Source: Desulforegula conservatrix Mb1Pa
GTDB lineage: Bacteria > Desulfobacterota > Desulfobacteria > Desulfobacterales > Desulforegulaceae
Length of the DNA stretch: 64,000 nt
Direction of reading: 5' to 3'
Assembly: GCF_000426225.1 (NCBI RefSeq)
Contig: NZ_AUEY01000009.1
Coordinates: forward strand, 1-64,000
Part shown: piece after piece, positions 37,407 to 50,752 of the stretch
Layout of the letters: every line of letters begins with the position of its first letter
Numbering within the stretch: position 1 is the first letter of the stretch
Notes under the pieces: model-generated
Seen by the model: the letters and a program-made list of their open reading frames with translations, nothing else
Databases searched by the model: none
What the model was told of the DNA's origin: nothing
Position numbers and translations under genes: made by a program

Positions 37407-37456
37407 TTTCGCTTTTTCATGTTTTGAAGAAAAGATTCTTGAAGAGGAATGGGAAT

Positions 37457-40400
37457 ATGTCTGAATCAAGCCTCAAAAAACCGGAGTCTATATTTTACAG
37501 AGCGTTTAATAACGAGAGTTTCAATATAATCATGTTTTTCAGCACGATTGATGAAGGCGTTTATATTGATGTCAACGAGGCTTTTGTAAGGGCAGTTGGT
37601 TTTCCAAAGCATGAAATCATCGGAAGAACGTCCGTGGAGCTTGGGCTAATGTCTGATAAAGACAGGGAAAGGATTAAAAAAAAACTTGCGGATAAAGGCC
37701 GACTCGAAAACTTTGAAGTTGAATTTCGAACAAATGAAAAAAAGATTCTCAATCTAAGCATGTTTGGGGAAATCGTTTCAATAGGAGGCCAGCAAAGTCT
37801 TTTTACAATCGTTCATGATGTTACCGAGCTTAAAAACGCAAAATCAGAACTTGAAAAGGAAAAGACTCTTCTCCAGGTGATTTTCGAATCGACCCCGGAC
37901 GCCCTTGTGATTAAAGACCTGAATTCGGTATATCAGAAGGCCAATCCGGCTTTTTGCCGTTCTTCAGGAATTACGGAGGCCCAGGCAGTGGGAAAGACTG
38001 ACTTTGATTTTTTCCCTGAAACAGAGGCCCTTAAATATCGTGCCGAGGATCAGGAAATAATAAAGACAGGCATTTCCAAGGAATTTGAGAGAAAATTCAG
38101 GCAACAAGACAATCTTGTGTGGTACCAGACCATCAAGACCCCGGTTATGAACTCCAGGGGCTCCATATCCGGTGTCCTGTGTTCAGTCCGGGACATCAGC
38201 AGAAAAAAGCGCTTTGATGAACTTCTTAACTCGAGGCTCTGCATCAGTAATTATTCCTTTTCAAGTTCCCTCCCCGAACTTTTCCAGAAGGTATTGTCAG
38301 AATCTGAGCGGCTGACCGAGAGCCAGTTTTCTTTTTTTCATTTTGTGGATGATATCAACAAAATGATTCATCTGAACACATGGTCTGAAAACGCTGTGAA
38401 GGTCTGTGCCATAAAAACGCATGAAAAATCATACGGCCTCGACAAAGCGGGGGTATGGGCAGATTGTGTAAGGGGCCGCAAGCCAGTGATCCATAATGAC
38501 TATCCTGATCTTGATGCTAAAAAAGGGCTTCCTCCAGGGCATACCCATATAAGCCGTGAGCTTGTCGTGCCTGTGTTTGAGGGAGAAAAAATTGTCGCAA
38601 CGCTCGGGGTGGGCAACAAACGTGCCGATTATGATCAGGTCGATGTGGAGGTGGTAACCGAGCTTGCCAAGATGGCCTGGGACATACTTGGCAGGAAGGA
38701 GGCTGAAAAGAGATTCGGCGAATCCCAGCGTGTTCTTAAAACCCTGATGGATAATCTACCCGGAATAGTATTCAGGTGCAGGGTCAGCTCTGAGCTAAAG
38801 CTTGAAGTTGAGTTCGTGAGTGATGGTTGCACAGCAATCACTGGTTATTCCCCTGATGAATTCACAACCGGCCAGGTCAATTTTTTTGACATAGTTCACC
38901 ATGAAGATTCTGCGATGATTGCCAGGATGGTTCCAGGTTTTTTCAACAATAACCGGCCCTACGAGGTTGAGTTTAGAGTGATACATAGAAACGGAGCTTT
39001 CAGGCATCTCTGGGGGCGCGGCATAGCTGTTTCTTCCATGGAAGGGGCTTTTGTAACGATAGAGGGATTTATTTCGGATATTACAGAACTCCGAAGCAAG
39101 GATGCGGAGTTGCGGCGTTTTGCCTCGGCCATGCACCAGGTGGCCGATACCATTATAATCACTGATAAGAGCGGTGTTATCAAATATGTCAATCCATCAT
39201 TCGAAAAGACCAGTGGATACGGCTGTTCCGAGGTGATGGGGAAAAAAGCCAAAGTCCTGAACAGGGGAGCGCTTGACGATGGTTTGCATAGGGATCTATG
39301 GTCAACCATTGAATCCGGCAGAATCTGGAGCGGCCGTTTCGTAAGCAGAAAAAAAGACGGAAGCCTTTATACTGAAGAGGCGACCATCTCCCCGGTATTT
39401 GATGACAATGGGGAAATAATCGAGTTTGTCGCTGTAAAAAGAGACATCACAAACGAGCTGAATCTTGAGGCCCAGATTTTTCAGTCCCAGAAAATGGAGG
39501 CAATCGGTGCCCTATCAGGCGGAATAGCCCATGATTTCAATAATATTCTTTTCCCTCTAATCGGTTTTTCTGATATTCTACAACAAGATCTTCCTGCGGA
39601 CAGTCATTTGCAGGATTATGTCAGTGAAATACTCACGGCTTCTTTCAGGGCAAAGGAGCTTGTCAAGCAGATACTCGCATTCAGCCGTCAGTCAAAGGCG
39701 GGAAAAACGGTTCTTCGCATCCAAAACATTCTGGGCGAGGTGGTTCGTTTCTCAAGAGCAACACTTCCAAGCACAATTACAGTCAGAACTTTTATAAATA
39801 CGAAATGCCGCCCTGTGCTTGCTGATTCAACCCAGATACACCAGATAGCCATGAATCTTGTCACAAACGCTCTCCATGCAATGGAGGAAAACGGCGGTGT
39901 TTTAACGATCGCCCTTGATGAGATCCAGATGGATAATGAACTTTCTTCAAATCTTTCAATAGAATCAGGTCTTTATATCCGTATGGCCGTATCGGATACG
40001 GGTTGCGGCATAGCTCCGGCCATTCAGGGCAGAATCTTTGATCCTTATTTTACAACTAAAGATAAAGGTACAGGAATTGGTCTGGCCGTGGTTCATGGGA
40101 TCGTAAAGAGCCACGGTGGCAACATTGAACTTCAAAGCACTAAGGGAGAGGGAACTTCATTCGTTATTTATTTCCCATGCCTTATGGAAGACAGAAAGGA
40201 TGCCCAAAAGGATTATATGGTTCCGACTCCTTGCGGAAGCGAGAAGATTCTTGTGGTTGATGATGAAGAGGCAATCGCAAGAATGGTCAGACAAATGCTT
40301 GAGCGCCTCGGATATACTGTGACTGTCCGTACAAGCAGCGCCGAGGCTTTCCAGCTTTTCAAAGACGATCCTTACAGATTTGATCTGGTTATTACGGATA

Positions 40401-40612
40401 TGACCATGCCCAAAATGACAGGCGATCAGCTCTCTATGGGAATTAAGAAGATCAGAGCTGGGGTCCCTATCATAATATGCACTGGTTTCAGCGAGAAAAT
40501 GGATGCAGACAAGGCAAGGATGCTTGGAATAGAGGGCTTTGTCTTAAAACCTATACTCCAGAATGAACTGGCCGTGAAGGTCAGGGAGGTTCTTGATAAT
40601 AAAGAAAAATAG
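37457..40612 (+). CDS. Soluble PAS/GAF hybrid histidine kinase
   Basis: A 1051-residue kinase without membrane segments. Domains in order: PAS (about 10-130), PAS (135-250), a GAF_2-type GAF (255-415), two more PAS (420-550 and 555-675), HisKA with phospho-His 692 in GGIAHDFNN, HATPase (SDTGCGIAP, GTGIGLAVVHGI), and a C-terminal receiver with its aspartate in LVITDMTMPKMTG. I start at 37457 (ATG with a GAGGAATGGGAAT leader); an upstream TTG would add 11 residues. It lies between the HTH-receiver gene and a chemoreceptor gene on one strand, with short gaps. The many sensor domains suggest cytoplasmic cues such as redox, light or small molecules. Confidence 0.92.
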   Translation: MSESSLKKPESIFYRAFNNESFNIIMFFSTIDEGVYIDVNEAFVRAVGFPKHEIIGRTSVELGLMSDKDRERIKKKLADKGRLENFEVEFRTNEKKILNLSMFGEIVSIGGQQSLFTIVHDVTELKNAKSELEKEKTLLQVIFESTPDALVIKDLNSVYQKANPAFCRSSGITEAQAVGKTDFDFFPETEALKYRAEDQEIIKTGISKEFERKFRQQDNLVWYQTIKTPVMNSRGSISGVLCSVRDISRKKRFDELLNSRLCISNYSFSSSLPELFQKVLSESERLTESQFSFFHFVDDINKMIHLNTWSENAVKVCAIKTHEKSYGLDKAGVWADCVRGRKPVIHNDYPDLDAKKGLPPGHTHISRELVVPVFEGEKIVATLGVGNKRADYDQVDVEVVTELAKMAWDILGRKEAEKRFGESQRVLKTLMDNLPGIVFRCRVSSELKLEVEFVSDGCTAITGYSPDEFTTGQVNFFDIVHHEDSAMIARMVPGFFNNNRPYEVEFRVIHRNGAFRHLWGRGIAVSSMEGAFVTIEGFISDITELRSKDAELRRFASAMHQVADTIIITDKSGVIKYVNPSFEKTSGYGCSEVMGKKAKVLNRGALDDGLHRDLWSTIESGRIWSGRFVSRKKDGSLYTEEATISPVFDDNGEIIEFVAVKRDITNELNLEAQIFQSQKMEAIGALSGGIAHDFNNILFPLIGFSDILQQDLPADSHLQDYVSEILTASFRAKELVKQILAFSRQSKAGKTVLRIQNILGEVVRFSRATLPSTITVRTFINTKCRPVLADSTQIHQIAMNLVTNALHAMEENGGVLTIALDEIQMDNELSSNLSIESGLYIRMAVSDTGCGIAPAIQGRIFDPYFTTKDKGTGIGLAVVHGIVKSHGGNIELQSTKGEGTSFVIYFPCLMEDRKDAQKDYMVPTPCGSEKILVVDDEEAIARMVRQMLERLGYTVTVRTSSAEAFQLFKDDPYRFDLVITDMTMPKMTGDQLSMGIKKIRAGVPIIICTGFSEKMDADKARMLGIEGFVLKPILQNELAVKVREVLDNKEK

Positions 40613-40647: not shown

Positions 40648-42651
40648 ATGAAAATTAATGTCAGGTCAATAGAATTCAGGCTTCTTGTTATCAGTCTCTG
40701 TGCCGTGCTTTTCCCTTTGATGGTCGTGGGAGGGGTTTCCATATCGAAATCATCCCGTGCCTTGACCGCCGTCTCAGAAGAAAAGGTTCAGATATTGGCC
40801 CAGGATACGGCAAATCTTGTCCATAATATTCTAAATGCTGAGATGAGAATTGCCGCAACTTTTTCCTCAGCCCAGAACATCATGAAACACGTCGCCCTGA
40901 TCAACCAGAACGGAATTGAGAAAGAAGCCGAATCAGTAAAAATCCTTTTTGAGAATATGAAACAAAAATTTACCCATATGGGTGATAATTATCAGGGGAT
41001 TTTTGTCACTGATATCAAGGGCAATCTTTTGACAGGCGTACTTGAGGGCGGGGCCGAATACAAAGGCGTTAATATCGCTGAAAATGAGGAATTCAAAAAA
41101 GCCGTTTTAAATCAGAAAGATGTTGTCGGTGAAATGACTGTCTCAAAAGCAACCGGGAAATTGATTGTCATAGTTGTCTCGCCAATTAAATCTGAACAGG
41201 GGCAGATTGTCGGAGTTTTCGGGTCAGTTCTGAAAGCTGGATATTTTACAAGCCTTGTTTCAGACCGTAAGATCGGTAAAACAGGCTATGGCTATATGCT
41301 AAACGGAAAAGGCATTGTACTTGCCCATCCTAAACAGGAACATGTGCTTAAGCTGGATGCTTCGGCCATCAAGGAAATGGACAGCATCTCCAAGCAGATG
41401 CTTGCCGGACAGACAGGCGTTGAATCATATGTTTTTAATGGGGTTGATAAAATAGCCGGTTTCGCACCGGTCGGAATAAACGGGTGGTCAATAAGCGTGA
41501 CCCAGGATTCCGATGAATTCCTTGAGGCGGCAGTCAGCATCAGGAATCTGACTTTGCTGGTTATTATATGTTCCATACTGATTGTTGGTACTGTCATTGT
41601 AATTGCTTCAAGATCAATAGTCAGGCCAATAAACAGCGCTGTTGAAGGTCTTAAGGATATTGCCCAGGGGGAAGGTGATCTTACCATGCGCCTTTCAGTA
41701 AATTCAAAAGACGAGGTTGGTGAACTTGCAACATGGTTCAATGTGTTCATCGAAAAACTCCAGGGAATAATGAAGGATATTTCAGGCGGTGTTCAGACCC
41801 TTGCCTCTTCGTCAACCGAGCTTTCAGTGATTTCAACCCAGATGAACAGAGGGATTTCGATAGTTACTGAAAAATCATCTGCTGTTGCTGCGGCATCCGA
41901 AGAAATGAGCGCAAGTATGCACAGCGTGGCGGCAGCCATGGAACAGTCATCCGCAAATACAAATATGCTTGCCACAGCTTCAGAAGAAATGTCCTCGACC
42001 ATAAACGAGATAGCCAGAAACGCCGAAAAGGCGAGAACCATATCAAGCAATGCCGCTAAGAAAGCAACAAACGCCACTGAAAATATTGATCAGCTTGGGA
42101 TAGCCGCAAAATCCATCGGAAAGGTTATCGAGACAATCACGGATATTTCTGAACAGGTTAACCTTCTCGCCCTGAACGCGACGATAGAGGCTGCAAGGGC
42201 TGGTGAAGCAGGAAAGGGCTTTGCTGTTGTTGCCAATGAAATAAAAGAGCTTGCAAGACAGACGGCAGACGCAACTCAGGACATCAGGGAAAAGGTCGAA
42301 GGAATTCAGGGAACAACTGCAATCACTGTCAAAGAGATAACTGAAATAACAGGTGTCATCGCTGAGGTTAACGAGGTGGTTACAACAATTGCCGCAGCAG
42401 TGGAAGAACAGTCAGCCGCCACAACAGAGATAGCCGGAAATGTCGCCCAGGTTTCCACTGGCATTCAGGAAGTCAATGAAAATGTCAACCAGAGTTCAGC
42501 GGCAGCTTCATATATTACGAAGGATATCGCTGATGTGAACGGATCTATGGCTGAAATGTCTAACAACAGCGCCCAGGTTGATGTAAGCGCCCATGATCTT
42601 TCAAAGCTCTCGGAACATCTCAAGCATATGGTTGATCAGTTCAAGTTGTAG
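40648..42651 (+). CDS. Methyl-accepting chemotaxis protein, dCache type
   Basis: A 667-residue chemoreceptor. Transmembrane helices at about 11-31 and 301-322 enclose a double-Cache periplasmic sensor with the typical [16 protein letters not shown] and [14 protein letters not shown] segments. HAMP follows (about 322-375), then a long coiled-coil signalling domain with the conserved tip [17 protein letters not shown] near 505. GGGGAGGATAAG precedes the ATG. There is no C-terminal pentapeptide. It is followed by cheW after about 100 bases, which include a GC-rich hairpin. Confidence 0.95.
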
Positions 42652-42752: not shown

Positions 42753-43226
42753 GTGGACATATCTGGTCTTGGAGGTAAATATCTGACATTCAGGCTGGGC
42801 AGTGAAGAGTACGGGCTTGGCATAATGAAGATCCGTGAAATTATCGGCCTTATGCCCATAACCTCTGTCCCCCAGACGCCAATATTTGTAAAGGGGGTTA
42901 TTAATCTGAGGGGAAAGGTCATTCCTGTAATTGATTTGAGACTAAGATTCTCCATGGATGAAATTCCCCATGATGATCGAACATGCATAATTGTACTTGA
43001 TATTTCAAGTGTAAGCAGCAACCTTCTTATTGGGATAATTGTGGATTCGGTATCCGAGGTTCTTAATATCAGGGCAGAAGAAATTGAGGAAACGCCTGCG
43101 TTCGGTGTCAAGTTGAATACCGGTTATATCCTTGGCATGGCAAAATCTGGGGGAGGGGTTAAAATCCTCCTGGACATAGACCAGGTTCTTACTGAAGGAG
43201 AGGTCTGCGCGATTTCAGGACTCTGA
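42753..43226 (+). CDS. cheW: Chemotaxis coupling protein CheW
   Basis: A 157-residue CheW that links receptors to the CheA kinase at the membrane. YLTFRLGSEEYGLGIMKIRE, the VKGVINLRGKVIPVIDLR core and VDSVSEVLNI are standard. The GTG start is set by AAGGAGGG six bases upstream. It is placed between two chemoreceptor genes in the same direction. Only one CheW gene is present in the block. Confidence 0.95.
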   Translation: MDISGLGGKYLTFRLGSEEYGLGIMKIREIIGLMPITSVPQTPIFVKGVINLRGKVIPVIDLRLRFSMDEIPHDDRTCIIVLDISSVSSNLLIGIIVDSVSEVLNIRAEEIEETPAFGVKLNTGYILGMAKSGGGVKILLDIDQVLTEGEVCAISGL

Positions 43227-43287: not shown

Positions 43288-45294
43288 ATGTTCGCAAAAA
43301 TGAAGCTTGGGGTTAAGATAGCCTGGGGTTTTGGATCGGTGATTTTTCTGGCTCTTGTTCTTGGTGGAATCTCGGTTGTAAGCATGACAAAGGCAAAAAA
43401 TAATGCTGTAAGAATAGATGACCAGTATATTGAGGAAGTGGCCATATCGGGCCAGCTTGAGCGCAGAATTCAGCGCTATATGTTCAATATGCGTGGTTAT
43501 GGTTTTACCGAAGAGAAAAAATATCTGGATCTTGCGATTGATGATCTGAAAAAGATCAGGGAAAGCATAGATATGGGCAAGAAGCTGTTTGAAAAGAATC
43601 CCGAACTCCAGGATTTTGGGAAAAACATATCTCTGGTTGCCTCCAAAATGGACGAGTATGAATCCCTTGCCAAAACGACATCAGATAGAATTGGCAATTT
43701 AAATGCTGTCAGAAAAAGCATGGATGAAGCTGCATCAGCATACATGAAACCCTGTTTTACCTATCTTGAGAATCAGAAAATTGCCACGTCAAAAGATATT
43801 GATTCTGATGCAGGCGGGGAAAGAATGCATGAGCGCCTCGACAAGATAATGGCAATAAACGAGATCATTGAAATAGGAAATTCCATCCGCATAGCAAATT
43901 TTAAGTCCCAGGCCTTGAGGGATATGGATGCCATTAAAGCAACAATGAAAAGCTTTGAGACAGTTGCAAAGAAAATTGGTGATTTACGGGCAACAACAAG
44001 GCAGGAAGTCAATATAAAACTCCTCGATTCAATTGAGGAATCAGCGGGTCAATATAAAAGAGCCCTTTCTGATTTCCTTGATAATTTGTCATCTCTTGCT
44101 GAAGTGGGAGATAAGCGTGTGGTGGTCGGCCTTGATGCCCTCGAGCTTGTCAGGGCTACAAGTGTATCTGCCGTTGATTCAACAAAGAAGGCGTCCGATT
44201 CTTCCGTCATAAATCTAAGGGCTTCGTCATTTGTTCTTGTTTCAGGTCTTTTGTTCGTATTCGCAGCCGGTGTTGTCCTGGCATTCATCATAATCAGAAG
44301 CATAACCAAGCCTATAAACAATGTCATTGCAGGGCTCGGCGAAGGCGCAAACCAGGTCGCGGCAGCCGCAGGTCAGGTGGCCAGTTCCAGTCAGTCTCTT
44401 GCTGAAGGCGCTTCTGAACAGGCTGCGTCACTTGAGGAAACATCATCCTCCCTTGAAGAGATGTCCTCCATGACCAAACGCAACGCAGACAATTCTGCCC
44501 AGGCTGATAATCTCATGAAGGAAGCCGGAGAGACTGTCAGAAAGGCGTCAATATCCATGTCCGCCCTCACGGATTCTATAAACGAGATATCGGATGCGAG
44601 CCGCCAGACCCAGAAGATCATCAAGACCATAGACGAGATAGCATTCCAGACAAATCTTCTGGCCTTGAATGCCGCAGTCGAGGCTGCAAGGGCAGGGGAG
44701 GCAGGAGCAGGCTTTGCCGTTGTCGCCGAGGAGGTAAGGAACCTTGCCCTCAGATCAGCAGATGCCGCAAAAAACACTGCCGCGATGATCGAAGACACGG
44801 TCAAGAAGGTGAATGACGGAAGTATTCTTCTTGATCAGACAAATACAGCTTTTGCTGAAATGGCTTCTTCGGCTTCAAAGGTCGGAGAGCTTGTCAGCGA
44901 GATTGCTGGCGCTTCAGACGAACAGGCCAAGGGGATAGAGCAGGTAAACCGGGCTGTTGCTGAGATGGACAAGGTAACCCAGCAGAATGCGGCCAATGCG
45001 GAGGAATCTGCCAGCGCATCGGAAGAATTGAGCGCCCAGTCAGAGCAAATGATGGATTTTGTCAATCAGCTCATAATCCTGATAAGAGGAGAAGGCAGTT
45101 CAATGCATATGAACAGGCCATCAAGGCCAAAATCTGTTTCGATTTCCCATAATATGAAGCGCCCCATGCTTTCCTCCTATTCGCCTGTAAAGGGGGCCTC
45201 CGGAAAATCCGGTCAGGTTCTTTCAGGCAGGGGCAGGGAAATAAGGCCTGAGGATGTTATTCCGCTTGACAATGACGACTTTGCCGAGTTTTAG
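43288..45294 (+). CDS. Methyl-accepting chemotaxis protein with helical sensor and C-terminal pentapeptide
   Basis: A 668-residue chemoreceptor. TM1 lies at about 9-31 and TM2 at about 313-335. The ~280-residue periplasmic part is almost all helical, in the style of the HBM (helical bimodular) domain of McpS. HAMP and signalling domain follow, with tip [22 protein letters not shown] ~40-residue flexible tail rich in S, R, P and G ends in D-F-A-E-F. This fits the x-[FWYH]-xx-[FWYH] pentapeptide that tethers CheR or CheB. No cheR or cheB is in the window, so the partners must be elsewhere. It lies about 60 bases after cheW. Confidence 0.94.
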
Positions 45295-45768: not shown

Positions 45769-47934
45769 ATGGTAATTGCAAAAAGAATAAGGCGGGAATC
45801 CGAGAAATTTCTTGGAGTGATTTCAAATGCCAGCGCCTCGGACATCCCCGCCCTCGGCAAATGCCTTAATTTTATGGATAATCTTCCTCTTCACATCCTG
45901 CCCGAAGATCATCCCGTGCGTGAGGTCGTTCCTGTGATAAAACGGTATATAGAGAGGCTGATTTTTGAAGAGGAAAAAGACATAGATTTCCTTGTATCCT
46001 GTGTCGAAAAATTCTGCTTCACAGATGATTATAACGAAAAAAACATCAGGGATATTCTGGCCGGTCTTGCTCTTAAAAATGAGCCTGACTGGTTTTCAGA
46101 CATGGATACCGATGTTTCCTCTTCTCCTGAAAATACTGCAAACGGCCAGGATGTGACAGACGAAGACCAGCAGATAGTCTGTGAGTTTATTACCGAGTCC
46201 CTTGACAGCATTGACGCTCTGGAATTCAGCCTTGTCGCCTTTGAGGAAAATCCTGGTGATTCGGATGTGATAAATGCTATTTTCCGGATTTTTCATACAA
46301 TCAAGGGGGTTTCAGGTTTTCTTAATCTGAATGAAATAAACTCCCTTTCCCATTCAACGGAAAACCTCCTGGACGAAATCAGGCAGGGCAGTATCAGGGT
46401 CGCAAAAAAAGTCATAGATGTAATATTTGAGTCTGTCGATACTTTAAAAAGAATGATTCTTGAGATTAGGGATAATATTGAAAGCGGCTCTCCATGGACA
46501 AGCAGCGCGATCAGTATAAAGGGGATCAAGCACAAGATAGCCGCCATTTTGCAGGCATCGGGCGAGTCTGATGACATGCCCATAGGCGAGATTCTTGTGG
46601 TCAAGGGCATAGTAAAAAAAGAGGATCTCGATGAGGGGCTTGAGATTCAGAAAAAGAATCCTGGGAAAAAGCTCGGAGAAATTCTTGTTGAGAATAAAAA
46701 GGCTGATGCCGAGGCAGTCAGTCTGGCTGTAAAAAACCAGGAGAGAGAAAGAAGCCAGGCCTCAAATCAGGTTTCAAGCCAGGTGAAAATTGACACATCA
46801 AAACTTGACAGTCTGGTGGATCTGACAGGGGAGCTTGTAATAGCCCAGTCCATGATGAGGCAGTACAGCCAGAAATATATGGATTCAGACCCCCAGTTCT
46901 ATAAATTCATAAGCCAGCTATCCTCTTCTGTCTCAGGGATTCAGAAAATAGCCATGAACATGAGGATGGTGCCAATCAGAAGCACTTTTCAGAAAATGGT
47001 CAGGGTTATCAGGGATCTTTCTAAATCATCGGGCAAGGAAATCATTCTTCAGATGACAGGCGAAGAAACCGAAATCGACCGCAATATGGTTGACGCCCTT
47101 TACGAGCCAATGGTTCACATGATCAGAAATTCGGCTGACCACGGTCTTGAGCTTGCTGATGAACGGGTAGCGAAAGGCAAAACACCTTATGGGACAGTCT
47201 TTTTAAGGGCTTTTCATAAAGGCGGCAATATTGTCATTGAGATTGAAGATGACGGCAGGGGGCTGAATAAGGGAAAAATTACAGAAAAAGCTGTTTCAAA
47301 GGGACTCATACAATCCTCTGAGAATATGACCGACGAGCAGATATATGGTCTCATTTTCGAGCCCGGATTTTCGACCGCCAGCTCAATCACTGACATTTCC
47401 GGCAGAGGTGTTGGAATGGATGTTGTGAAGCAGTCCATCGAAAAAATGAAAGGGCATATTTCCATAGATTCTGTTGAGGGAATGGGTTGCACCTTCACCA
47501 TGGCCCTCCCTCTGACCCTTGGCATAATCGAAGGCATGGTTATCAGGTCAGGGACTGAAAAATATATTATTCCAACGCTGTCAGTTCTCGAATCTTTCAG
47601 GCCTGATAAAAATGATTACAAGACTTCTTTTGAGCGCGGGGAAATGCTTCTTGTGAGGAATTCCCTGATCCCTTTTGTGAGGCTTGGCAGCATTTTCGGA
47701 ACAAAGTCTGATATTGAGAATCCCTGGGACGGCATTGTAATTGTTATTGAGAACAAGGGCAGGAAGATAGGCCTTTTTGTGGATGATATTCTCGGAAAGG
47801 ATGAATTTGTAATCAAATCCCTTGGTGATGTTTTCAGGGGGATAAAAGGCATTGCCGGCGGTTCGATAGTGGCTGATGGCAGAGTTGCCTTGATAATGGA
47901 CGTATCAGGACTGTTTGATAAGGTTTTTGATTAG
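45769..47934 (+). CDS. cheA: Chemotaxis histidine kinase CheA, unusual domain set
   Basis: A 721-residue CheA. The N-terminal ~130 residues are helical and not recognised. An Hpt (P1) domain spans about 133-245, with phospho-His 176 in IFHTIKG. Instead of the CheY/CheB-binding P2 domain, residues ~270-325 carry a segment like the N-terminal domain of GspE/MshE (PIGEILVVKGIVKKEDLDEG, KLGEILVENKKAD). Dimerisation (P3), ATPase (P4: MIRNSADHGLE, DDGRGL, GRGVGMDVV) and CheW-like P5 domains follow. Missing P2 fits the absence of CheY nearby. AGGAACAGCTAA precedes the ATG. Confidence 0.93.
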   Translation: MVIAKRIRRESEKFLGVISNASASDIPALGKCLNFMDNLPLHILPEDHPVREVVPVIKRYIERLIFEEEKDIDFLVSCVEKFCFTDDYNEKNIRDILAGLALKNEPDWFSDMDTDVSSSPENTANGQDVTDEDQQIVCEFITESLDSIDALEFSLVAFEENPGDSDVINAIFRIFHTIKGVSGFLNLNEINSLSHSTENLLDEIRQGSIRVAKKVIDVIFESVDTLKRMILEIRDNIESGSPWTSSAISIKGIKHKIAAILQASGESDDMPIGEILVVKGIVKKEDLDEGLEIQKKNPGKKLGEILVENKKADAEAVSLAVKNQERERSQASNQVSSQVKIDTSKLDSLVDLTGELVIAQSMMRQYSQKYMDSDPQFYKFISQLSSSVSGIQKIAMNMRMVPIRSTFQKMVRVIRDLSKSSGKEIILQMTGEETEIDRNMVDALYEPMVHMIRNSADHGLELADERVAKGKTPYGTVFLRAFHKGGNIVIEIEDDGRGLNKGKITEKAVSKGLIQSSENMTDEQIYGLIFEPGFSTASSITDISGRGVGMDVVKQSIEKMKGHISIDSVEGMGCTFTMALPLTLGIIEGMVIRSGTEKYIIPTLSVLESFRPDKNDYKTSFERGEMLLVRNSLIPFVRLGSIFGTKSDIENPWDGIVIVIENKGRKIGLFVDDILGKDEFVIKSLGDVFRGIKGIAGGSIVADGRVALIMDVSGLFDKVFD

Positions 47935-48088: not shown

Positions 48089-50752
48089 ATGTCAAGAATC
48101 CCGCATGATCTTTTTCTTCTTATGCTTAACCTTTCCCAGCTTGATTCCGAGGAGGTTATCAAGGAACTGTTCATCGAGGCAATAATAGACTGGACAGGGA
48201 ACAAACACCTCGGATTCAGCTGTAATAAAGAAAAGCACGAAGGTTTTTTTCTTGAGATTGCCACCCCTGACTATAGTTTTGGCGGTATAAACTTCGACAA
48301 AAATGACCTGGGTGACGACGATTTTTTTGTTCTAAAAAATGTCGCCACCACTCTTGCCGTGATTTTAGACAGTCTAAGGAACAAGAGGCTAATCGAACAG
48401 GAAAAACGAACACTCGAAGCAATGGTTCAGAAAAGAACCGAGGAACTTAAAAAAATCAATCAGGAGCTTATGTCCGAGATTATGGACAGGGAGCTCTATG
48501 AACAGCAGCTTATTGAAAAAGAAACCAGATACAGGGAGATTGTCGAGAACATCAATGATGTCCTTTTTACAATGGATAGCCAGGGAGTCATTACCTATAT
48601 AAGCCCTGTGATCCGTAAAATTACCGGATATGCTCCCGAATACATAATCGGAAACGATTTTATCCGGTTCATTTACCCTGACGACCGTTTAAGGATAGAC
48701 AATAAATTTAAGAACGCCGCAATCGAAGGCGTTTTTATAACAAAATTAAGGGTCGTGGGTCAAAATGGTAAAATCCGCTGGCTGAGAGCTTCTGTAAAAA
48801 CCATAACTGAAGGCTGTCATCTTAAGGGATTCAGGGGCCTTTTGGCCGACATTACTGATATCAAGGAACTCGATGACAGGCTTGAGCTTATTGCCCAGAA
48901 TATTGACGAGGTTTTATGGATAATTGATGCTGAAGGAACCCACCTTACTTATATTAGTCCTTCGTATGAGAAAATCTGGGGCTACAGCAGCAAGGCTCTT
49001 TATGAAAATTTGGCTTCATTTATAGATTCTGTCCATCCCGAGGACCAGCCAAGAATTAGAAATGAAATCAAAAAAGTTATGGAAACAGGCTATTTTGACG
49101 GTGAGTGCAGAATTGTCCGGCCTGATGGCGAGACCAGATGGATGTGGGTGAAATCTTTCCCCTTAAAGAACAGCAATGGTGAAATTATAAACAGGATAGG
49201 TCTGGCAAGGGATCTCACAGAAAAAAAACAGACCGAACTGAAGTATTCGGCCATCATCCAGACATCCCTGGTCGGATTTTTAATTATAGACATAAAGTCT
49301 GGCATACTCGAAGCCAATGACGCTGCCTGTTCCATGACAGGATATTCCAGCGCAGAGCTTCTCGGAATGAATATTTCATCAATAGAGGCAAAATACAGCC
49401 ACGAAATGGTTGTCGAAATGCTCGCGGATGTCAGCGCAAAAGGCTGGGGGCGTTTTGAGAGCAGGCTAAGATCCAGGGACGGAAGAGTCATTGATGTAGA
49501 TGTCAGTGTAAACAATCTTCCAACCGAGAAGAACAGTTTTGTGGTTTTTGTCCGTGACATAACTGAAAAAAAACAGCTTGAGGAACATGTTATACAGGCC
49601 CAGAGGATGGAGTCCATTGGAAGGCTTGCTGCCGGAATAGCCCATGATTTCAATAATCTTCTGTCTCCCATACTCGGTTATACGGAAATGATGATGCTTT
49701 CATCTCAAGGGGAGAGTGCTCAAAGGCCTATGCTGGATGAAATTAAAAAAGCGGCTGAAAGGTCAAAGGATCTTATCAGGCAGCTGATGGCATTCAGCAG
49801 GAAGCAGGTCATTGAAACAAAAAATACAAGCTTTCCAGGCATTGTTGACGGCTTTTATAAAATTTTGAGAAGAACCCTTCGTGAAAACATAGAAATTAGA
49901 ACAGTTCATAACAGCACCGGCGCATCCATCATTGCGGATATCGGCAAGATCGAGCAGATAATAATGAATCTTGCTGTTAATGCCCAGGATTCGATGCCTG
50001 AAGGCGGAACGCTTGTGATCGAAACAGGCTCTGTTTTTCTTGATGATGCCGAGGCTGCGATGATTTCAGGCCTTGTTCCTGGCAGATATGCGACTCTTTC
50101 TGTTTCTGATTCAGGGTTCGGTATGGATGCGGAAACGCAGAAGAAAATTTTCGAGCCGTTTTATACCACTAAGGAAGAGGGCAGTGGCACAGGACTTGGA
50201 CTTGCCACGGTCTATGGAATATCGAGCCAGCATGACGGAGGTGTGGCTGTCCATAGCGAGCCGGGTAAAGGATCTGTTTTTGTGGTATATATTCCCCAGA
50301 GGAAAAATTTCCTGCCTGAAGGCGAATCTGAGCATGGGGATCAGGTGGTTTTATCCGGAGCAGAGGACGGAGCCACCGTTTTGGTAGCTGAAGATGAGGA
50401 GATTACAAGAAAGGTGGTTTTGAACATTCTGACAAGCCTTGGCTACAATGCCATTTGTGCCTCAAGCGGTGAAGAATGTCTTTTTATGATGGAAGATAGC
50501 TGTTTTGCAGGGAAGGTCAGGCTATTATTGTCTGATGTTATAATGCCTGATATGAAAGGCCCCGATCTTTTTAAAAAGATCAGGGAAAAGCATCCTGAAA
50601 TGAAGGCAGTTTTTATGTCAGGCTATCCTGAGGAGTCCATGAAAATTCATGGTTTCAGGATGGATGATTATGAATTTATCCAGAAACCGTTTTCAGTAAA
50701 AGACCTTGCTTCGAAGGTGAGGAGCATCCTTAATAAAAACAGGGATGACTGA
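48089..50752 (+). CDS. Soluble PAS hybrid histidine kinase with GAF-like N terminus
   Basis: An 887-residue kinase without membrane helices. The first ~105 residues look like a diverged GAF domain, followed by a coiled coil (about 100-150), three PAS domains (about 150-262, 265-380 and 385-492), HisKA with phospho-His 519 in AAGIAHDFNN, HATPase (SDSGFGMD, GTGLGLATVYGI) and a receiver with its aspartate in LLLSDVIMPDMKG. It lies 154 bases after cheA on the same strand; the ribosome site is weak (AAAGAG). Its kinase core resembles that of the kinase at 37457, so the two that flank the receptor/CheA genes may be paralogues with different sensors. Confidence 0.92.
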   Translation: MSRIPHDLFLLMLNLSQLDSEEVIKELFIEAIIDWTGNKHLGFSCNKEKHEGFFLEIATPDYSFGGINFDKNDLGDDDFFVLKNVATTLAVILDSLRNKRLIEQEKRTLEAMVQKRTEELKKINQELMSEIMDRELYEQQLIEKETRYREIVENINDVLFTMDSQGVITYISPVIRKITGYAPEYIIGNDFIRFIYPDDRLRIDNKFKNAAIEGVFITKLRVVGQNGKIRWLRASVKTITEGCHLKGFRGLLADITDIKELDDRLELIAQNIDEVLWIIDAEGTHLTYISPSYEKIWGYSSKALYENLASFIDSVHPEDQPRIRNEIKKVMETGYFDGECRIVRPDGETRWMWVKSFPLKNSNGEIINRIGLARDLTEKKQTELKYSAIIQTSLVGFLIIDIKSGILEANDAACSMTGYSSAELLGMNISSIEAKYSHEMVVEMLADVSAKGWGRFESRLRSRDGRVIDVDVSVNNLPTEKNSFVVFVRDITEKKQLEEHVIQAQRMESIGRLAAGIAHDFNNLLSPILGYTEMMMLSSQGESAQRPMLDEIKKAAERSKDLIRQLMAFSRKQVIETKNTSFPGIVDGFYKILRRTLRENIEIRTVHNSTGASIIADIGKIEQIIMNLAVNAQDSMPEGGTLVIETGSVFLDDAEAAMISGLVPGRYATLSVSDSGFGMDAETQKKIFEPFYTTKEEGSGTGLGLATVYGISSQHDGGVAVHSEPGKGSVFVVYIPQRKNFLPEGESEHGDQVVLSGAEDGATVLVAEDEEITRKVVLNILTSLGYNAICASSGEECLFMMEDSCFAGKVRLLLSDVIMPDMKGPDLFKKIREKHPEMKAVFMSGYPEESMKIHGFRMDDYEFIQKPFSVKDLASKVRSILNKNRDD

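Follow-up and report, generated by a model that had tools for sequence, protein, structure and literature searches.

A putative c-di-GMP-binding MshEN_N/GSPII unit between the P1 and P3 domains of a chemotaxis histidine kinase CheA

The window, the whole stretch of 64,000 nucleotides of Desulforegula conservatrix Mb1Pa that was analysed, contains a short chemotaxis cluster on the forward strand. Two genes for methyl-accepting chemotaxis proteins (MCPs) enclose a CheW gene and are followed by a gene for a CheA histidine kinase. The genes of the cluster, and the domains and motifs of the CheA, are as follows.

40648..42651, + strand, methyl-accepting chemotaxis protein (dCache_1, HAMP, MCPsignal)
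42753..43226, + strand, CheW
43288..45294, + strand, methyl-accepting chemotaxis protein (MCPsignal; a 4HB-like sensor below cut-off)
45769..47934, + strand, CheA histidine kinase, 721 aa (pseudo-P1, P1, MshEN_N, P3, P4, P5), from ORF and domain profiles
45769..46086, + strand, N-terminal helical domain, residues 1–106, probable pseudo-P1, from the model and VIA-align
46174..46467, + strand, P1 (Hpt), residues 136–233, with phospho-acceptor His176 (HTIKG), Pfam PF01627, E 1.2e-10
46579..46740, + strand, MshEN_N/GSPII c-di-GMP-motif unit, residues 271–324, from NF053729, predicted fold and conservation
46579..46650, + strand, motif I, PIGEILVVKGIVKKEDLDEGLEIQ, residues 271–294
46669..46740, + strand, motif II, KLGEILVENKKADAEAVSLAVKNQ, residues 301–324
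46777..46962, + strand, P3 dimerisation domain (H-kinase_dim), residues 337–398, Pfam PF02895
47110..47517, + strand, P4 ATP-binding kinase domain (HATPase_c), residues 448–583, Pfam PF02518 and N/G1/G2/G3 motifs
47530..47922, + strand, P5 CheW-like domain, residues 588–718, Pfam PF01584

The neighbourhood of the window CheA consists of MCP-CheW-MCP-CheA only, with no genes for CheR, CheB, CheD, CheX or CheY. On either side of this cluster lies a large hybrid histidine kinase rich in PAS domains and equipped with receiver domains (37424-40612 and 48089-50752). The window protein has P1 with its phospho-accepting histidine, P3, P4 and P5, and the N, G1, G2 and G3 box motifs are all intact, which identifies it as a CheA. 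These parts it shares with the canonical P1-P2-P3-P4-P5 CheA of E. coli and Salmonella. It differs from them in an additional N-terminal P1-like domain that carries no phospho-His, and in having the MshEN unit where they have P2. The P2 domain is not universal in CheA. A domain search of the protein gave no Pfam match for P2, and the gap between Hpt and the MshEN_N unit is ~37 residues, leaving no room for such a domain. The preliminary description spoke of an insert in place of P2; this holds for the window protein but not for other CheA lineages, where another domain precedes the unit in the P1–P3 interval.

The unit is 54 residues long and is made of two 24-residue motifs and a 6-residue spacer, with GEILV at residues 273–277 and 303–307. 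This agrees with the ~55-residue unit with two GEILV motifs that had been described between Hpt and the dimerisation domain. NF053729 ('c-di-GMP motif, MshE-related'), the curated NCBIfam profile for the 53-residue double motif, has a cut-off of 38 bits; it matches the whole protein with 42.6 bits and an E-value of 3.7e-11, and also all 24 aligned relatives. In a phmmer search against the PDB the GSPII domains of Thermus PilF are found at 2.2e-12 and MshE, weakly, at 0.016. On these scores the resemblance of the CheA unit to the c-di-GMP motif exceeds chance, and the earlier naming of the insert as GspE/MshE-N-like is well founded. Pfam MshEN (PF05157) gives no match to the unit at the gathering score, in the window protein or in a whole-genome search. 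With its 90 positions this model exceeds the 53-residue MshEN_N unit in length, and MshEN_C is missing from the CheA unit. The length of the model explains the miss, and we rejected the silence of PF05157 as a sign that an MshEN unit is absent.

The AlphaFold2 model of the window fragment (24 alignment rows) has a pLDDT of ~92 over the unit and shows four helices in MshEN order, the last of which extends towards P3. In a Foldseek search of the PDB, ranks 1–16 are exclusively MshEN/GSPII chains with probabilities of 0.91–1.0, while unrelated folds rank lower with probabilities of at most 0.2. The E-values are modest (best 0.008) because the unit is so short. The model superposes with 1.0 Å over 56 columns on c-di-GMP-bound PilF GSPII-B and with 0.8 Å over 55 columns on c-di-GMP-bound MshE. 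VIA-align gives Z of 9.9 and 9.8 for the PilF GSPII-B/MshE pair, 7.5 for PilB and 7.1 for the non-binder XpsE. The unit is thus predicted to have the four-helix MshEN_N/GSPII fold; structure prediction had been set beforehand as a check on the insert, and the fold obtained is a related one.

In MshE numbering the window unit carries P9, I10, G11, G18, L25, L29 and Q32, then the 6-residue spacer, then K38, L39, G40, K47, V54, V58 and Q61. The third-position Gly and the last-position Gln are present in both motifs (G273, Q294, G303 and Q324). All six hydrophobic contact positions are still hydrophobic, and Pro and Lys stand where the consensus has Arg and Arg. The strict consensus per motif is RLGxx(L/V/I)(L/V/I)xxG(L/V/I)(L/V/I)xxxxLxxxLxxQ. 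Motif I agrees throughout with the relaxed form that Wang et al. give ([RKPN]hG...). Motif II is off consensus at the turn Gly (Lys310) and at the following position and has Val at both Leu positions; Val at the second of these (L58) is found in one of 37 units. The nucleotide-binding residues of MshEN, on which the preliminary description let its reading depend, are therefore mostly present, and they are conserved across relatives.

Published work indicates that several consensus positions tolerate change, but not all. XpsE, which lost c-di-GMP binding, is changed at G11, I19, L29, R38, G40, L54, L58 and Q61 (PMC5013675); of these the window unit retains G11, I19, L29, G40 and Q61, with Lys in place of R38. 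In Thermus PilF GSPII-B, where Lys and Leu occupy the two Arg positions, binding is at 6 nM; PilF K167L binds c-di-GMP at 2 nM, and GSPII-C, also a binder, carries Pro at the Arg position in one motif (PMC11731258). In PilF GSPII-A, Ile for Leu at two motif-II positions caused only a 2.4-fold loss, and the Gly, the Gln residues and the first-position Arg mattered (PMC12002112). Since Arg is dispensable in PilF and Pro occurs in a binding member, c-di-GMP binding by the window unit is plausible. The window copy may bind c-di-GMP, perhaps more weakly than its relatives because both motif-II leucines are Val. Some features argue against binding. Motif I begins with Pro, a residue outside the tested R/K/L set, and PilF GSPII-C has three motifs, of which the one with Pro may not be used. 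Motif II has Lys for its turn glycine, and 6 residues, not 5, separate the two motifs. Non-binders such as XpsE and PilF GSPII-A share the fold (PMC12002112), and a restored consensus alone did not always bring binding back.

Alignment with other CheA sequences, also suggested at the outset, places the contact positions among the better conserved parts of the motifs. Across the 24 units aligned with MAFFT, G11, G40 and Q61 never vary, and 19 units have Q32; both motif glycines make backbone contacts to guanine. Mean entropy is 0.78 bits at the 12 contact positions versus 1.53 bits over all 48 motif positions, with a permutation p of 2e-4 that is a guide only, as the alignment rows are related. 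This p value comes from the MAFFT alignment of the window and named genomes, and not from the search pattern, which itself demands the Gly and hydrophobic residues. The other core hydrophobic positions have a mean entropy of 1.2. Of the sequence arguments, the conservation of the contacts speaks most strongly for a ligand and against a fold that merely spaces or docks.

A protein partner could nevertheless take the place of the ligand. P2 recruits CheY and CheB, and a unit that occupies its place could have replaced it in this role as a ligand-free docking or spacer domain, with the GSPII fold binding CheY, CheB or a PilZ-type protein. A PilZ protein is the partner of the GSPII-fold domains in Xanthomonas citri PilB (7lko and others, Foldseek ranks 13–16), and XpsE-N has lost c-di-GMP binding. 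We consider this explanation rather unlikely. The c-di-GMP contacts are among the most strongly conserved residues, and those that XpsE lost are exactly the ones that the CheA unit family keeps. In other CheA lineages, moreover, the unit stands beside a further P1–P3 domain and so is not simply a substitute for P2. That domain received no Pfam name in a profile search; the label 'P2-like' was dropped for it, as the likeness was by eye only. It precedes the unit in the short-spacer lineages, suggesting addition at the P1–P3 linker more than replacement of P2.

In Nitrospira and Desulfoluna units the spacer has one residue in place of five to seven, and the Nitrospira form passes NF053729 with 54.9 bits. 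Nitrospira-type units with the one-residue spacer occur at L058, L059, L061, L063, L064, L066, L068, L070, L076, L079 and L080. The architecture of the window CheA, including the N-terminal domain, occurs across the order, and MshEN-CheA loci are found in Desulfobacterales, Nitrospira, Syntrophus, Desulfacinum, Desulfoluna, a Holophagaceae, a spirochaete and a Zixibacterium. By hand count, window-type CheA is present in ~50 of 147 genomes sampled from the class (E 1e-23 or better). A tree of P3–P5 cores needs seven trait changes, five of them forced by well-supported branches, so that several CheA lineages have the unit; gain and loss look alike on this tree, and the sample is biased by the way relatives were found.

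Six CheA dimerisation domains are encoded in the genome, and three of its CheA carry the unit, namely the window CheA (C9) and the copies C2 and C5. The C5 CheA (L043, G000:C5) has a degenerate unit with Lys for the first Gln and a one-residue spacer, located after an unnamed P1–P3 domain. Its NF053729 score is below the cut-off, as is that of the long CheA form. The window CheA is most closely related to the C2 copy (49% over the N-terminal half), which lies in the operon cheR-cheA-cheD-HDOD-cheY-cheX-cheB (L039:3612-10338). This gene order recurs in many relatives, and in two of them (L051 and L054) CheW-MCP precede cheA-cheD-...-cheB. It is plausible that the window and C2 loci are a split of one ancestral cluster, and likewise plausible that the window CheA would pass phosphate to the CheY at C2.

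The comparison with C2 bears on whether the unit family binds c-di-GMP while the window copy, as a diverged paralogue, is losing the function. The branch of the window copy is 0.40 long versus 0.14 for C2, the C2 paralogue retains Arg at R38 and Leu at L58, where the window copy has its uncommon Val, and adaptation and output genes are lacking beside the window CheA. Such a loss is nonetheless quite improbable. Between the two copies the MshEN unit (63%) is no less conserved than P5, Hpt and P3 (62–67%), and the Gly and Gln contacts and the kinase motifs are intact. Some GGDEF enzymes of delta-proteobacteria make 3',3'-cGAMP. It is hardly credible that the unit binds this or another cyclic dinucleotide instead, since MshEN binds cGAMP weakly (KD 3.3e-4 M), its specificity comes from backbone amides that accommodate guanine but not adenine (PMC5013675), and the unit gives no sequence sign of an altered preference.

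The genome also encodes 28 GGDEF domains, so that diguanylate-cyclase domains are abundant in it, nine Pfam MshEN matches and FliG. Together with the predicted fold, the contact residues and their conservation, the GGDEF domains favour a c-di-GMP input built directly into CheA, which is the best reading and one that we hold with slightly better than even confidence; it supports the second-messenger input at which the preliminary description had hinted. The MshEN_N/GSPII four-helix unit, placed between the phosphodonor P1 and the P3 dimerisation hairpin of an otherwise complete CheA, would bind one c-di-GMP in a pocket made by both motifs. Binding would change where P1 lies, or how freely it moves, with respect to the kinase core, and cellular c-di-GMP would in this way tune the phosphate output of the MCP-CheW-CheA complex. 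Binding of c-di-GMP by the window unit is fairly likely, while an effect of c-di-GMP on CheA kinase activity has about an even chance. More tentatively, and with somewhat less than an even chance, the chemotaxis kinases of a large and ancient group, spread over Desulfobacterota, Nitrospirota and a few other phyla, may sense c-di-GMP directly through this unit at the P1–P3 junction, which separate CheA lineages would have gained or kept on several occasions, with the second messenger gating output at the kinase and not at the receptors or the motor.

Other links between c-di-GMP and chemotaxis include a PilZ domain on a chemoreceptor (Azospirillum Tlp1), MapZ-CheR1 and the CheY-like CleD proteins. 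A phosphodiesterase is linked to the chemotaxis machinery in Pseudomonas aeruginosa (PMC3861689). Like the proposed input into MshEN-CheA, all of these join c-di-GMP to the chemotaxis machinery, but there the receptor or enzyme is a separate protein, whereas in the window case it would be within the kinase. With Vibrio cholerae MshE and Thermus PilF GSPII-B and -C the CheA unit shares the two 24-residue motifs, the four-helix fold and the Gly, Gln and hydrophobic contacts. It differs in lying inside CheA with neither MshEN_C nor a secretion ATPase, in its spacer of 6 residues, not 5, in Pro and Lys at the Arg positions and in Val at two Leu positions. One sentence of Wang et al. 2016 names CheA among the MshEN partners, a domain combination that is the same as in the window CheA (PMC5013675). 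The fusion is thus not new, and it is also common in the class. In the literature searched, mostly without subscription papers, we found no experiment on c-di-GMP acting on an MshEN-CheA. If both binding and a kinase effect hold, many anaerobic and nitrifying bacteria would take the swim-or-stay decision within the chemotaxis kinase itself, at a kinase-level c-di-GMP control point undocumented in that literature. A compact, testable family is at hand in CheA proteins that have or lack the unit and whose spacers are long or short, some of them sharing one genome.

The helical domain noticed earlier before Hpt is borne out as a fairly confident predicted bundle of residues 1–106, with a pLDDT of ~80–90 for residues 1–100. 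Foldseek gave no significant match for this domain. Among the Foldseek candidates realigned with VIA-align, the best is the P1 of Salmonella CheA (1i5n; Z 12.5, 105 residues, 2.6 Å), and CheA P1 domains make up six of the 11 top matches, although Z values this high can arise between helical bundles by chance. The aligned N-terminal domains of relatives have no conserved phospho-acceptor His. A profile kinship between the N-terminal domain and Hpt was rejected, as only the overlapping alignment edge matched; with the profile comparison empty, the kinship to P1 is drawn from structure alone. A pseudo-P1, that is a P1 without the phospho-His, is the likeliest reading of the predicted bundle and a reasonably probable one. 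The domain is conserved in relatives, and in some Desulfobacula-type relatives (L044, L047, L051, L052 and L054) it is duplicated.
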